64,000 nucleotides of DNA from Haloarcula halobia (GTDB lineage: Archaea; Halobacteriota; Halobacteria; Halobacteriales; Haloarculaceae), in the NCBI RefSeq assembly GCF_029338255.1, contig NZ_CP119787.1, forward strand, positions 3,177,631 to 3,241,630, in the 5' to 3' direction. Positions 5,553-28,050 of this stretch are shown here, in pieces. A model generated the notes under the pieces. The model was not told the DNA's origin and made no database searches. It was given only the letters and a program-made list of their open reading frames with translations. The stretch's first letter is position 1. Every line of letters begins with the position of its first letter. The position numbers and the translations under genes are program-made.

Positions 5553-7397
5553 ATGAGTTCGGTACCCGTACGCAGCGAGGTCGACGAAGAGTACAAGTGG
5601 TCCCTGGAGAGTCTCTTTGCCTCCGACGAGGAGTGGGAGGCCGCCTTCGAGGAGGCCGAGTCGCTGGTCGAGGACCTCGCGGCCTACGAGGGACGGGCAA
5701 CAGAGGACGCCAGTACCCTGCTCGAGACCCTCGAGACCTACGAGCAGACGATGCGGACCGTCTCGAACGTCGCGGCCTACGCACGGATGCGCCGCGACGA
5801 GGATACGACCGACGACACCTATCAGGCCCTGACCGCCCGCGCCCAGTCGCTCTCCTCCGACGCCAGCAGCGCGGCCTCGTTTCTCGAACCCGAACTGCAG
5901 GCACTGGACTACGGCGACATCGACGCGCTGATCGACGAGGAATCCGCCTTAGAGGAGTACGACCACTACTTCGACGACGTCCTGCGGATGAAAAACCACA
6001 CCCGCTCGGCCGAGGTCGAGTCGCTGCTGGCCGAACTCGGGGAGGTCACCGGCGCACCGGGCGAGGTGTACAACATGCTCGCCAACGCCGACATGGAGTT
6101 CCCGACCGTCGAGGATAGCGAGGCGCGAAGCGCCTCGGACCGTTCGAGCGGCGAGGAGCCGCGAGAAGACCCCGAGGGCGGCGACCAGCCCATCACGCTC
6201 AACAACTTCACCACCCTCCAGAAGCACCCGGACCGCGACTTCCGCCAGCGGGTCTACGAGGCCTTCTACGACGAGTGGGGGACGGTCCGCAACGCCGTCG
6301 GCGCGGCCTACAAGAACTCGGTCAAGACCGACGTCAAGATGGCCCGGGCGCGCAACTACGACACCGCCCGCGAGGCCGCACTCGACGGGCCCAACGTCCC
6401 GGCGGAGGTCTACGACACGCTGGTCGACACCGTCGACGAGAACCTCGACACCCTCCACCGCCACGCCGACCTCAAGCGCGAGGCGCTCGGGGTCGAGGAG
6501 TTGCGGATGTGGGACCTCTACGTCCCGCTGGTCCAAGAGGAGTCACCGACGATCGAGTACGAGCAGGCCTGTGAGTACGTCGTCGACGCCGTCGCCCCGC
6601 TGGGCGACGCCTACCAGAGCCGCCTAGAGGAGGGACTGGACTCCCGCTGGGTCGACGTCTACGAGACGAAACACAAGCAATCGGGGGCGTACTCCGGGGG
6701 TACCTACGACTCCCAGCCGTTCATCCTGCTGAACTACCAGGACGACGTCGAGTCGATGTACACGCTGGCCCACGAACTGGGCCACTCGCTGCACTCGGAG
6801 TACACCAGCGAGACCCAGCCCTACGTCTACTCGGGCTACGAGGTCTTCGTCGCAGAGGTCGCGAGTACGGTCAACGAGACGCTGCTGACCCACCACCTCC
6901 TGAACACCGTCGAGGACGAGCGACTGCGCCGGCACGTCCTCAACGAGTACCTCGAACGGTTCCGCTCGACGCTGTACCGCCAGACCATGTTCGCGGAGTT
7001 CGAGCACCGCACCCACGAGATGGCCGAGGCCGGCGAGCCGCTGACGCCGGACCGCCTGGACGACCTCTATGCCGACCTCAAGGGGGAGTACTACGCCCCC
7101 GCCCAGCTCGACGACCGCATCGCCCGCGAGTGGATGCGCATCCCCCACTTCTACCGGGCGTTCTACGTCTACCAGTACGCCACCGGCATCTCGGCCGCGG
7201 TGGCACTGGTCGACAACATCCTCGAACACGGGGAGCCCGCCGCCGAGCGGTACATTGATTTCCTGCGGAGCGGCTCCCGGGAGTACCCCCTCGAACTGCT
7301 TCGGGACGCCGGCGTCGACATGGCCAGCCCCGAACCGGTCGAGTCGGCGCTCGACACTTACGCCCAGTACTTAGACGAGTTCGCGAGTCTGAACTGA
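5553..7397 (+). CDS. pepF: Oligoendopeptidase F (M3 zinc metallopeptidase)
   Basis: A 614-residue M3B peptidase. The zinc site HELGH is at residues 407-411 within LAHELGHSLHSEY, and the third ligand lies in the conserved VFVAEVASTVNE about 25 residues later. The N-terminal helical domain and the C-terminal PHFYRAFYVYQYATG region are typical. It cleaves short cytoplasmic peptides, probably downstream of the proteasome. A GCTTACTT box near 5521-5528 suits a leaderless start. Oddity: residues about 188-206 look like a translated copy of a hairpin repeat inserted in frame between VED and EGGDQPITL (see findings). Confidence 0.93.
   Translation: MSSVPVRSEVDEEYKWSLESLFASDEEWEAAFEEAESLVEDLAAYEGRATEDASTLLETLETYEQTMRTVSNVAAYARMRRDEDTTDDTYQALTARAQSLSSDASSAASFLEPELQALDYGDIDALIDEESALEEYDHYFDDVLRMKNHTRSAEVESLLAELGEVTGAPGEVYNMLANADMEFPTVEDSEARSASDRSSGEEPREDPEGGDQPITLNNFTTLQKHPDRDFRQRVYEAFYDEWGTVRNAVGAAYKNSVKTDVKMARARNYDTAREAALDGPNVPAEVYDTLVDTVDENLDTLHRHADLKREALGVEELRMWDLYVPLVQEESPTIEYEQACEYVVDAVAPLGDAYQSRLEEGLDSRWVDVYETKHKQSGAYSGGTYDSQPFILLNYQDDVESMYTLAHELGHSLHSEYTSETQPYVYSGYEVFVAEVASTVNETLLTHHLLNTVEDERLRRHVLNEYLERFRSTLYRQTMFAEFEHRTHEMAEAGEPLTPDRLDDLYADLKGEYYAPAQLDDRIAREWMRIPHFYRAFYVYQYATGISAAVALVDNILEHGEPAAERYIDFLRSGSREYPLELLRDAGVDMASPEPVESALDTYAQYLDEFASLN
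6118..6168 (+). repeat. In-frame hairpin-rich repeat insertion inside pepF
   Basis: Two perfect hairpins lie back to back: GAGGCGC (6120-6126) with GCGCCTC (6130-6136) around a GAA loop, and GCGGC (6148-6152) with GCCGC (6158-6162) around GAGGA. The segment is translated as an Arg/Ser/Glu-rich stretch with no role in the M3 fold. It resembles the GAGCG/CGAAG-type repeats found between genes at 38.85-39.07 kb, so it is probably a mobile or expanding repeat tolerated in a surface loop. That it is an insertion is inferred from family knowledge of M3B peptidases. Confidence 0.6.
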
Positions 7398-7542
7398 CAG
7401 GGCCGTCTCGTTCGGGCGTGGGGCCGTCGACCGGTCACGAGAGGCACGCGGGCGGGAGTCCGGATACCGGCCCACGGGGGCGCGGACACTGATATCGCAT
7501 CTCAATGTGGCTTTAATATTGTGGGATTCCTACACTAGAGAG

Positions 7543-7887
7543 ATGCAACATTCGGAACCGTCACCTCGGTGTGACTGTACCCCAGTCGTCGCGACGCGGT
7601 TCGGCGGCGACACCGGACACAGCCCGGCCGAAGCGATCGTCGAAGCCGTCGCGGCCGCCGAAGACGTCGCGCCACTCGAACTCGCCCCGCTGTACGAAGA
7701 GATCGACCTGGAGTCGGTCGACCGACTGTTCTCGGAGACCACCCCGCCGTCGACCCGCCCCGCACTGCTGCAGTGCTCCGTTCTGGGATGGAAGGTCTAC
7801 CTTCGCGGCGACGGCGCGCTCCGGGTGTGTGACCCCGCGCAAAGCACCGACCCGGGACCGGTGTTCGAGAAAGCGATCGGCGATTGA
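7543..7887 (+). CDS. HalOD1 output-domain protein
   Basis: A 114-residue protein of the haloarchaeal HalOD1 type. It has the typical opening with SPAEAIVEAVAAAEDVAPLELAPLYEEIDLESVDRL (cited in parts: PAEAIVEAVAAAE, PLYEEIDLESVDRLF) and a C-terminal beta segment QCSVLGWKVYLRGDGALRV. HalOD1 is a presumed signal-output domain whose target is unknown. The start 7543 is chosen over GTG 7507 because a TTTAATATT box at 7512-7520 is centred 27 nt upstream, fitting a leaderless mRNA. It stands alone between pepF and the convergent arginine decarboxylase gene. Confidence 0.75.
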   Translation: MQHSEPSPRCDCTPVVATRFGGDTGHSPAEAIVEAVAAAEDVAPLELAPLYEEIDLESVDRLFSETTPPSTRPALLQCSVLGWKVYLRGDGALRVCDPAQSTDPGPVFEKAIGD

Positions 7888-24468: not shown

Positions 24469-25332
24469 ATGGTCGAGTACGAGGTCCCGGAGGTCGATTA
24501 CACCCAGTACACGAACCGCCAGCTGGTGGCGATACCGCTGGCGGTGCTGGTGCTGGCGCTGGCGGTCATCGGTGGCTGGTGGGCAGTCACCGGGGCCCCC
24601 GTCGCCTTCGGCATCGACTTCACCGGTGGGTCGGAGATCACGGTCGAGACGACGCTGTCACACGAGGAGATTCGCGCCACCTTCGACGAACCCGTCTCGT
24701 CGGTACAGGGCATCGAACAGGCCGAGAATCGCTACATCGTCACGTTCGAGTCCTCGAACATCGGCGACATCCGCGACACCGCGGAGGCGACGGAGGGGAT
24801 GACCGTCCTGGGCAGCGGCTCTACCTCGCCGATATTCGGCGCGGAGAACCAGCGCCTGGCAGTGCTCGGACTGGGCGTGGCCTTCGTCGGGATGAGCCTG
24901 CTCGCGTTCGTCTTCTTCCGGACCTTCGTCCCGAGCATCGCCATCGTCATCTCGGCGTTCTCGGACATCGTCATCCCCGTCGCGGTGATGAACCTGCTGG
25001 GCATCAAGCTCTCCCTTGGGATCGTCGCCGCCTTGCTGATGCTCATCGGGTATAGCGTCGACTCGGACATCCTGCTGAACAACCACGTGCTGCGCCGGTC
25101 GGGCAGCTTCTACGAGTCGACCTACCGCGCGATGCGGACCGGGGTGACGATGACGATAACCTCCATCGCCGCGATGGCCGTGATGGCCGTCACCGCGACG
25201 CTCTTTGGCATCGACCTGATGGCAGACATCGGCCTCGTGCTCGTGCTCGGACTCTCCGCGGACCTGATGAACACCTACATGCTCAACGTGACGCTGCTTC
25301 GCTGGTACAAGTACGAGGGGGTGAACCGATGA
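24469..25332 (+). CDS. secF: Protein translocase subunit SecF
   Basis: A 287-residue membrane protein of the SecF type. Its first helix is around residues 18-38, followed by the conserved IDFTGGSEITVE loop and a short periplasm-side domain. Five C-terminal helices include SIAIVISAFSDIVIPVAVM and IGYSVDSDILLNNHVLR, the conserved RND-like segment. With SecD it uses the proton or sodium gradient to help export. A GCTTATTC box (24438-24445) is 28 nt upstream. The stop overlaps the secD start by four bases (ATGA). The gene order F then D is the usual archaeal order. Confidence 0.94.
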   Translation: MVEYEVPEVDYTQYTNRQLVAIPLAVLVLALAVIGGWWAVTGAPVAFGIDFTGGSEITVETTLSHEEIRATFDEPVSSVQGIEQAENRYIVTFESSNIGDIRDTAEATEGMTVLGSGSTSPIFGAENQRLAVLGLGVAFVGMSLLAFVFFRTFVPSIAIVISAFSDIVIPVAVMNLLGIKLSLGIVAALLMLIGYSVDSDILLNNHVLRRSGSFYESTYRAMRTGVTMTITSIAAMAVMAVTATLFGIDLMADIGLVLVLGLSADLMNTYMLNVTLLRWYKYEGVNR

Positions 25333-26885
25333 GCACGCTGCGGGACAACTGGCGCATCGCCTTGCTCGTGGTCCTCCTGCTGGCGAGCACCGTCGCGCTG
25401 TTCGTCCCGGGCACGCCGCCCGGGGCGTCCCCCGACGACGGCGCGGCCGCGGAGGACCAGTTGACCAATCTCCAGTACGGCATCCAGCTCAGTGGCGGGA
25501 CGCGCATCCGCGCGCCCGTCGTGGGGATGACCGCCGAGGGCGTCGACGTCGCCTTCGACAACGAGTCGGCCGTGACCGAGGCCGTGGCCGACGAACTCGG
25601 CCTGGACCCCATCGACGTGCGCGCCGCGAACGAGACGCGGACCGTCGAGGTCTTCACGAAGAACGTCACCGAATCGGAGTTCCGCGCCGCACTCGAAGCG
25701 GAGGGCTACCAGCCGGAGACGATACGCGACGGCGTGACCGACGAGACCCGGAGCCAGGTCGTCGATAGCGTCCAGCGGCGTATCACAGAATCGGCGCTCA
25801 GCGGCGGGTCGGTCCAGGAGGTCAACGTCCCGGGCGGCCAGACGTTCATCAGCATCACCGCCCCCGACAGAGACCGGAGCGAGCTGGTCGGGATTCTCGA
25901 GGAACGGGGCGTCGTCCGCGTCTACGCCGTCTACCCCGTCGAGAACGGGAGTCACGCCCGCCAGCAGGTCCTCGACCAGGACGAGTTCGCCGGCATCGGG
26001 ACCGCGCGCCAGAGCGACTCCGGACCGGGCGTGCCGGTGACCGTCGAGGCCAGCGCCGCCGAGGAGTTCGCGAGCACGATGGCCGCCAACGGCTTCGACG
26101 GGCAGACGGTCTGTAATCCGAACAACTACAACCACACCAACCCCAGCAGCCTCAACTCGAACGAGCGCTGTATCGTCGCGACGCTGAACGGCGACCCCGT
26201 GTTCGTCGCACCCGTCACGCAGGGACTGGGCGAGTCCTTCGCCAACGGCGAGTTCGTCAACGACCCGACGTTCGTGATGTCGACGAGTTCGATGGAGGAG
26301 GCCCGCGAGGTCGAACTCAGCCTCAAGTCCGGTCGCCTGCCCGCGCCGCTCGACTTCGAGAACGACGACAGCCTCTCGCTGGACCCCGCGCTCGCCGAGG
26401 GCTTCCAGCAGAACTCCCTCATCACGGGCATCATGGCCGTCATCGCGGTCAGCCTCGTGGTGTACGTCCGCTACGGCCGAATCGAGGTGGCGGCCCCGAT
26501 GGTCGTCACCGCGCTCTCCGAGGTGTTCTTGCTGCTCGGCTTCGTCGCGTTCGTCCAGTACCCGCTGAACCTCTCACACCTGGCCGGGTTCATCGCCGTC
26601 ATCGGGACGGGGGTAGACGACCTCATCATAATCGGAGACGAGATCCTCCAGCAAGGGGAGGTCCGGACCGGCCGCGTCTTCGAGAGCCGGTTCCGCAAGG
26701 CGTTCTGGGTCATCGGCGCCGCGGCGGCGACGACCATCATCGCGATGAGCCCGCTGGTCGTCCTCCCGCTGGGCGACCTCTCCGGGTTCGCCATCATCAC
26801 CATCGTCGGCGTCCTGCTGGGCGTGCTGGTCACCCGGCCGGCCTACGGCGACATCCTGCGGAACCTCGTGCTCGACGAGGACTGA
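25329..26885 (+). CDS. secD: Protein translocase subunit SecD
   Basis: A 518-residue protein with a first helix at about 9-29, then the conserved YGIQLSGGTRIRAPVVG. A large extracytoplasmic domain spans about 60-350, and five C-terminal helices contain FIAVIGTGVDDLIIIGDEIL, the SecD counterpart of the RND acid motif. It works with SecF. The four-base overlap with secF implies coupled translation. The stop is followed by GGGGGTCGCGTTTTT (T-run 26896-26900), a plausible end of transcription before the RNA-like region. Confidence 0.94.
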   Translation: MSTLRDNWRIALLVVLLLASTVALFVPGTPPGASPDDGAAAEDQLTNLQYGIQLSGGTRIRAPVVGMTAEGVDVAFDNESAVTEAVADELGLDPIDVRAANETRTVEVFTKNVTESEFRAALEAEGYQPETIRDGVTDETRSQVVDSVQRRITESALSGGSVQEVNVPGGQTFISITAPDRDRSELVGILEERGVVRVYAVYPVENGSHARQQVLDQDEFAGIGTARQSDSGPGVPVTVEASAAEEFASTMAANGFDGQTVCNPNNYNHTNPSSLNSNERCIVATLNGDPVFVAPVTQGLGESFANGEFVNDPTFVMSTSSMEEAREVELSLKSGRLPAPLDFENDDSLSLDPALAEGFQQNSLITGIMAVIAVSLVVYVRYGRIEVAAPMVVTALSEVFLLLGFVAFVQYPLNLSHLAGFIAVIGTGVDDLIIIGDEILQQGEVRTGRVFESRFRKAFWVIGAAAATTIIAMSPLVVLPLGDLSGFAIITIVGVLLGVLVTRPAYGDILRNLVLDED

Positions 26886-26895
26886 GGGGGTCGCG

Positions 26896-26900
26896 TTTTT
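26896..26900 (+). terminator. Possible T-rich terminator after secD
   Basis: A run of five T after a GC-rich stretch occurs eleven bases after the secD stop codon. Archaeal termination often needs only a short T-run. The evidence is the run itself and its position. Confidence 0.35.
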
Positions 26901-26967
26901 CGACGGCACAATCAGGCACGGGCCAGCGACGCGCCTGCACCACGTTCGTGTCAAACAATGCAAAATA

Positions 26968-26973
26968 TTTATA
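26968..26973 (+). promoter_or_regulatory. TATA box of the structured RNA region
   Basis: TTTATA within CAAAATATTTATAGAATG is the most AT-rich island of the secD-rnhB interval. It lies about 27-28 nt before position 26997, where the hairpin-dense region begins. No translated gene follows on the plus strand, so if active it drives a non-coding transcript. A second element, TTTATTA at 26980-26986, could place the start about 12 nt later. Confidence 0.55.
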
Positions 26974-26996
26974 GAATGATTTATTACCCCTGCCGT

Positions 26997-27402
26997 CCTA
27001 TCTTCACTTCCCGCTGGAACGCGGGGACACACTGGACGACGCATCTCAGACCATCCGTACAGGAGGAGACGGGATGCGTTGGGGGCAACAACCAAGCGAT
27101 CCGTAACAGGATTCCGAGGGTAACGCTCTGAAGCAGAACCGCCACAGCCCACACCCGCTCCGGCCGGCCGGAACGGTGTGAAGGCCAAGTACCGGACGTC
27201 GGGTGACCGGCGTTCGGGAATCCAGCACGCCGACAAAAGCTGGTGAAAGCCCAGCTAAAGTCCGCGAGGACAACGCCGGTGCAAGCCCGGCTAACGTTGG
27301 CATCGCTGCTGGACGGGCCGAACGGGCTGTCGAAAACATCTGCCGTCCAGGTCCAAACCGTGTCCAGGGGGATTCTTCCGTCGCTACCGCCCGTGAGCGG
27401 CT
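26997..27402 (+). ncRNA. Candidate large structured non-coding RNA (about 400 nt)
   Basis: No credible protein is encoded here on either strand, yet nearly every part can pair with a close partner. Clear stems: CCCGC/GCGGG near 27010-27025; ACGCATCTC (27039-27047) with GGGATGCGT (27071-27079); GATCC/GGATT (27098-27113); CACACC (27150-27155) with GGTGTG (27175-27180) enclosing a 14-nt palindrome; GTCGG-GTGA-CCGGC (27198-27211); AGCTGG/CCAGCT (27238-27256); GTCC-GCGA-GGAC (27260-27271); GCCGG/CCGGC (27275-27291); CTGGACGG (27309-27316) with CCGTCCAG (27343-27350); CCGC/GCGG (27387-27400). The GTGA and GCGA tetraloops are GNRA type only on the plus strand, as is the TATA box. It is not RNase P or SRP RNA by their core motifs. 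It may be an orphan transposon omega RNA or a new RNA. Confidence 0.5.
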
Positions 27403-27414
27403 GTGACGTCGCGC

Positions 27415-28050
27415 TCAGAACTCGCCCAGCGACGCCTGCTGGGCGGCCGCCAGCACGTCCGTGCATGTCGACCACGACGTCCGCGCACACGCGGGCAACT
27501 CGCCCTCGCGCTCGACGTACTCGGCCAGGAACTCGCGGGTCGCGGGGTCGCTGGGATAGCCCGACCCAACCGGCCCGTACTCCTCGGTCAACCGGTCGAC
27601 GTGAGCGTCACGGGCGACCTTCGCGACGATGGACGCCGCGCCGACCAGCGGGTCTATCTCGTCGGCCCCGTGTTCGGCACGCAGATCGACGACGGGGTCG
27701 ACCCGGTCGGCCACGCGCCGCCCGAACCGCTCGGCGTCGGTGTCGCCCGCGTCGACAGTCCCCGAGAGGTGCTCCGTGGCGACCCCACCGAGCGCCTCGG
27801 CGTGGGCATCGACGGTCAGCGTGTTCATATCCGTCTCGGGGTCGTCGATGCGGGCGACCGGGACCTCGGCGACGGCGACGGCGTCGGCGACACCGCGGAT
27901 CGTCCGATCGAGTTCCTCGCGGCGCGCCGGCGCGATGGCTTTCGAGTCGCCCACGCCGTCGGGGAGCACTGCCGGGTCGGCCCGGACCGCAGCGGCGAAC
28001 ATCGACCCGAGGACGGGACCCTTGCCGGCCTCGTCGACGCCGAATCGCAT
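27415..28050 (-). CDS. rnhB: Ribonuclease HII
   Basis: A 211-residue RNase HII. The catalytic acids are in RFGVDEAGKGPVLGSM (Asp-Glu), in the region around VARIDDPETDMNTL, and in the conserved GAASIVAKVARDAHVDRL. It removes RNA from RNA-DNA hybrids. ATG 28050 is the family start, and a CTATCTTT element (plus 28071-28078) is 24-27 nt upstream; the longer frame to 28113 overlaps nothing useful. Its 3' end meets the candidate RNA gene head-on. Confidence 0.94.
   Translation of the reverse strand: MRFGVDEAGKGPVLGSMFAAAVRADPAVLPDGVGDSKAIAPARREELDRTIRGVADAVAVAEVPVARIDDPETDMNTLTVDAHAEALGGVATEHLSGTVDAGDTDAERFGRRVADRVDPVVDLRAEHGADEIDPLVGAASIVAKVARDAHVDRLTEEYGPVGSGYPSDPATREFLAEYVEREGELPACARTSWSTCTDVLAAAQQASLGEF

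Follow-up and report, generated by a model that had tools for sequence, protein, structure and literature searches.

A large structured non-coding RNA of haloarchaea with a palindromic hairpin that may join its copies

The interval between secD and rnhB in a haloarchaeal genome is a stand-alone non-coding RNA gene of about 370 nt with its own predicted promoter. It lies in a window of 64,000 nucleotides, the whole stretch of DNA analysed here (G000:C1:3177631-3241630). We hold it as almost certain that the gene represents a large, structured class of haloarchaeal RNA that is both real and new. The explanation that we favour overall, with good confidence, is a trans-acting, compact and probably homo-oligomeric RNA. 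The newness is that of the RNA class itself, which fits no known family by sequence or by covariance model; its apparent working resembles that of the large RNAs OLE, GOLLD and ROOL.

The gap between the two protein genes measures 529 bases. The RNA sits 3' of secD on the same strand, and rnhB is convergent with both (Table 1). The plus strand of the interval folds at -194.8 kcal/mol, against -165.1 +/- 6.8 kcal/mol for dinucleotide shuffles (z = -4.35), and none of 100 shuffles is as good; the minus strand (z = -1.60) folds no better than its shuffles. No conserved reading frame runs across the interval. Because stops occur in every frame of both strands in most of 16 close relatives, the conservation is not coding, and a protein-coding explanation was rejected. 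These results agree with a sequence-only reading of the same DNA, which had described dense plus-strand structure without a credible CDS. Of the elements listed there, the GNRA loops, both related hairpins and the palindrome of 14 nt are present; the two hairpins are of the GGUGNRARYCC type seen in the P7 arm.

Both predicted ends of the transcript are supported by the relatives. Most of the 45 family members compared have a TATA-like hexamer 35-44 nt 5' of helix P0, and T-runs occur within 45 nt past P0 in 28 of 47 members, where 2.2 are expected. The sequence-only reading had proposed a start near 26997, which has to move: the TATA box that is conserved is TTTATTA at 26980-26986, and it puts the 5' end at about 27009. 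Its 3' end at 27412 is likewise replaced, as conservation places the end near 27377. The position 3' of secD in the same orientation is also what one would expect of a cis-acting leader or a long 3' UTR belonging to secD or to the downstream gene. Such an element is barely tenable against the RNA's own TATA box and 3' U-run, the convergent orientation of rnhB, and flanking genes that differ in other genera.

A further motif is seen in the promoters of several families. The sequence GGTAnCrTA stands between the TATA box and the start of the RNA (loci L082, L084, L087, L097, L098, L102, L107, L112, L113 and L120) and resembles an operator at which a common regulator would bind. GGTAnCrTA is absent from the window's genus, which carries instead a GTACCAAAT-like sequence 5' of the TATA box.

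Table 1 Features of the secD-rnhB interval, in window coordinates
Feature	Position	Partner	Strand	Observations
secD	25329-26885		+	
TATA box TTTATTA	26980-26986		+	AT content peaks here; TATA-like hexamer kept in relatives
Predicted transcript	27009-27377		+	Ends inferred from TATA spacing and 3' U-rich stretch; conservation in relatives stops here
5' hairpin UCCCGC/GCGGGGA	27009-27027		+	Genus-level alignment; competes with P0
P0a/P0b 5' strand, closing helix	27021-27028	27351-27361	+	P0a 97%, P0b 100% paired; double changes in 8/8 pairs
P1 5' strand CTGGACG	27032-27038	27344-27350 (CGTCCAG)	+	97.9% paired; double changes in 5/7 pairs
P2, variable hairpin	27040-27078		+	Alignment; some genera lack it or have it shortened
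P3, hairpin with conserved internal loops and GUAACA-type end loop	27082-27129		+	Double changes in 12/14 pairs
P4a 5' strand GCAGA	27133-27137	27339-27343 (TCTGC)	+	Covaries family-wide (GGAGA/UCUCC, GCAGA/UCUGC)
P4b 5' strand ACAGCCC	27144-27150	27324-27330 (GGGCTGT)	+	95.8% paired vs 78% shuffled
P5, palindromic hairpin	27155-27176		+	14-nt perfect palindrome at 27159-27172, centre CCGG; proposed intermolecular pairing site
P4c 5' strand GGCC	27183-27186	27316-27319	+	92.6% paired; GGCC/GGCC to GACC/GGUC
P6, hairpin with GNRA-type end loop	27193-27216		+	Double changes in 6/9 pairs; GNRA in 31/34 distinct loops
P7 region, variable	27222-27312		+	Closing arms 27222-27227/27307-27312 plus three hairpins; missing in several genera
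Core 3' strand: P4c', P4b', GAAAACA joining strand, P4a', P1', P0b', P0a'	27316-27361		+	Gap-free alignment across families
3' end, U-rich run	27358-27377		+	T-runs after P0 in relatives
rnhB	27415-28050		-	

The fold is carried by covariation. For the full structure, the core was joined with its 5' and 3' flanking strands in one alignment of 34 diverse members, picked because these strands scored well. It comprises 63 pairs in nine helices, and 94.5% of cells pair, with percentages that lean upward, towards the structure, for P3, P5 and P6, whose columns were aligned with a model containing those helices; the strands of P0, P1, P4a, P4b and P4c were placed by sequence, without structure fitting. 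When the partner strand is shifted by one or two columns, pairing falls to 37-50%, and each of the nine helices exceeds all 500 shuffles. Compensatory double changes are seen in 48 pairs. In the first alignment, of the core alone, RNAalifold finds double changes in 19 of 35 pairs. Two of the earlier stems fare less well in these alignments. Relatives do not keep the local 8-bp stem CTGGACGG/CCGTCCAG, whose 3' strand pairs instead with 27032-27038 to form P1, with compensatory changes; of the CACACC/GGTGTG stem, the palindrome is kept while the base of the stem varies.

In the P7 arm the hairpins often take the form GGUGNRARYCC, and two of the three in the window (27238-27256 and 27275-27291) have T-loop-like ends, a fit made by sequence pattern only. 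At the other end of the molecule, the hairpin at 27009-27027 and the closing helix P0 share bases, so that two alternative folds could form at the 5' end.

The P5 hairpin provides the main clue to how the RNA may work. In many members it is a perfect palindrome of 12 to 24 nt without any spacer. A palindrome of at least 12 nt is found in 22 of 38 genera, across seven families, with five different centres (CATG, CCGG, CGCG, CTAG and GATC). Among the distinct 4-nt loops of P5, 36 of 48 are self-complementary, compared with an expected 1/16 (binomial 1.5e-33 on counts uncorrected for relatedness). None of the 34 distinct loops of P6 is self-complementary. Since neighbours in a loop cannot pair with each other inside a single chain, switching between self-complementary P5 loops argues for pairing between chains, and the pattern points to copies of the RNA that pair with one another via P5. 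The same covariation argument has been made for loop L9.3 of OLE and loop L21a of GOLLD, and cryo-EM has revealed an OLE dimer and a GOLLD nanocage (PMC12286853).

The palindrome is missing in 16 of 38 genera, and self-pairing is not universal. This absence would suit a large RNA that stays monomeric, either a ribozyme or the protein-binding core of an RNP, in which the P5 palindrome has some other role or arises as a side effect of keeping the hairpin. The unpaired strands that join P4a and P4b (ACCG.. and GAAAAC) are strongly conserved, as in catalytic or binding sites, and count on the same side. A monomer leaves the five self-complementary centres kept in seven families without a cause, as intramolecular pairing cannot explain them, and we regard it as unlikely, though the strongest of the rivals. 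We judge it likely that the RNA works in trans, and that in most lineages it probably does so as a homo-oligomer.

Our proposal for the homo-oligomeric RNA is as follows. A dedicated archaeal promoter would produce the transcript of about 370 nt, whose ends pair through P0/P1 and enclose a branched fold of P2, P3, the long interrupted helix P4a-b-c, the palindromic P5, the GNRA hairpin P6 and the variable P7 arm. The RNA would act in trans as a compact particle, and its copies would join through P5, as the switching of the self-complementary loop suggests, into dimers or larger assemblies that probably include protein partners. We favour a homo-oligomeric scaffold of salt-adapted archaea, OLE-like in its working and unrelated to OLE by sequence. 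Its cellular task may be that of a scaffold, or lie in storage or catalysis.

Copy number and gene arrangement vary among the carriers. The RNA is single-copy in the window's own genome. Five genomes (G283, G260, G338, G143 and G405) have a second, more divergent copy at another chromosomal site. Two complete RNA genes stand in tandem in genome G213 (L096, 7001-7588), each with a promoter-like region, and in G422 (L108) and G400 (L109), both at 7001-7747, the RNA itself contains five to six tandem repeats of the P4-P7 module, spaced about 110-130 nt apart. All three of these genomes belong to genera without the P5 palindrome; it is a speculation that covalent P4-P7 repeats replace the assembly of copies where the palindrome has been lost.

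Relatives of the RNA are widespread and patchy, and what they have kept is its shape more than its sequence. A blastn search detects them in 47 of the 146 family genomes; in the window's genus and one neighbouring genus they are almost full-length and 76-95% identical. A first covariance model, made from 148 columns of the core (window 27076-27223), finds the RNA in 52 of 146 family genomes and, at E <= 0.1, in 113 of 391 genomes of the class. A second model, based on 62 diverse matches, recognizes 108 of 391 class genomes at E <= 0.01, in 41 of 86 genera. The covariance models allow annotation of the RNA in at least 41 genera. Carriers recognized by a pattern scan include Halosimplex, Halorarius, Halapricum, Haloarcula/Halomicroarcula, Halovenus, Halostella, Haladaptatus, Halorussus, Halorubellus, Natrialba, Halegenticoccus, Haloprofundus and Halobium. 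The same scan gave bacterial matches in Frankia, Pararoseomonas and Anaeromyxobacter, which were judged from their sequences to be chance.

Across the phylum (393 genomes), matches to the second model are limited to the window's order and three genomes of one other class. All three genomes examined from that class carry the RNA, with the conserved core strings in the same layout, and one of them encodes methyl-coenzyme M reductase. We infer from the methanogen nature and the presence of two families that the class is Methanonatronarchaeia, which we take to be a second halophilic line. We see an even chance that this is an undescribed RNA class, common to two archaeal classes and the first archaeal one of its kind, that assembles with itself via a palindromic loop.

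Within the window's genus, relatives that carry the RNA always have it at the same secD-rnhB site. Ten sibling genomes lack it, and their secD-rnhB gap is 34-217 bp, compared with 529 in the window; no insertion-sequence remnants are found at these empty sites. In a tree of rnhB, a one-gene tree without support values, the RNA-less siblings fall in at least three groups, which suggests that the RNA has been lost repeatedly from one ancestral site. From this spread it follows that not all haloarchaea need the RNA. A single genus, Haloarcula sensu lato, contains both carriers and non-carriers, which would open the system to genetics.

In other genera the neighbours are different: genes of the alpha-amylase family, a molybdopterin-binding protein, a DtxR-type regulator, phosphogluconate dehydrogenase, a thymidine-phosphorylase-like protein, DNA polymerase DP2, TGT and others. 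The ten flanking genes that were annotated in a subset of these carriers belong to ordinary housekeeping or unknown families, with no TnpB or IscB nuclease among them. An all-against-all ORF comparison of 40 neighbourhoods of about 14 kb gave no recurrent partner gene or protein, only lineage-specific synteny in family f4 and common kinase and regulator families.

These observations bear on the transposon origin that the sequence-only reading had offered as one of two identities, namely an omega RNA (the guide scaffold of IscB, IsrB or TnpB) left behind by an IS200/IS605 element. The patchy distribution would fit, as would several short hairpins in series with GNRA loops, as in HEARO and omega RNAs; adjacent short hairpins ending in CUAA have what we take to be a superficial resemblance to omega RNAs. 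Against this stand the lack of any match to the HEARO covariance model when 26500-28000 was scanned against Rfam with E up to 10, the single copy, the constant site within the genus, the absence of a nuclease among the examined neighbours, empty sites free of insertion-sequence remnants or transposon ends, and searches of plasmid, phage and viral-contig collections that returned no match. We therefore consider an omega RNA scarcely credible. The other identity, an undescribed haloarchaeal RNA, is borne out by homologues with strong covariation and by Rfam 15, in which the covariance search advised at the outset found no family at gathering threshold in the window. At eight family loci that were scanned with Rfam in addition to the window, nothing but tRNAs rises above threshold. 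We found no earlier description of the RNA in the open-licence literature.

Known archaeal RNAs had been dismissed by the sequence-only reading as a poor fit, and we concur. A divergent copy of RNase P RNA would share with the window RNA a similar size, a branched fold and a stand-alone gene, and short strings such as AAGGCCAA presumably look like bacterial RNase P. Even with E up to 10, the window has no match to RNase P RNA (RF00373) or to any Rfam model of SRP RNA; the CR-I (GAGGAAAGUCC) and CR-V elements of RNase P RNA are missing, and the genome's full RNase P RNA lies elsewhere (G000:C1:153689-154083, 154.6 bits). A divergent copy of this or another known archaeal RNA is thus very improbable. 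The best sub-threshold match is twister-sister (RF02681), at 28.6 bits against a cut-off of 34. The two have the GCCGGUGCAAGCCCGGC hairpin in common, but the consensus strand CUCAU reads CUGCU in the window RNA, and the match lies within the P7 arm, a variable part that is absent from several members. This candidate was rejected on its score under threshold and the missing 3' strand expected of it.

In apparent working, the closest parallels are found outside archaea. OLE (ornate, large, extremophilic), an RNA of Gram-positive bacteria, is like the window RNA large, branched, strongly conserved, non-coding, patchily distributed and found in extremophiles, and it too has a hairpin loop that switches between palindromes and is read as pairing between chains (PMC12286853). 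GOLLD and ROOL are large RNAs that self-assemble via kissing loops, some of them self-complementary (PMC12286853). P5 of the window RNA shows the feature that marks this group, a symmetric loop that covaries between palindromes. The differences are nonetheless clear. OLE is bacterial and about 600 nt long, while the window RNA has about 370 nt; the OLE dimer and its protein partners are known by experiment, whereas the oligomer proposed here is a prediction from sequence. GOLLD and ROOL are bacterial or phage RNAs, unlike the window RNA with its lack of viral, phage and plasmid matches. The Rfam models of OLE, GOLLD and ROOL have no gathering-threshold match in the window or at five other family loci. 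These known self-assembling large RNAs are bacterial or from phages; an archaeal one would, if true, allow a test of whether RNA assembly is a general strategy.

One carrier locus has an unusual neighbour. At L034 the RNA follows the gene for the large subunit of DNA polymerase II, which contains an apparent intein (a weak Pfam intein match).
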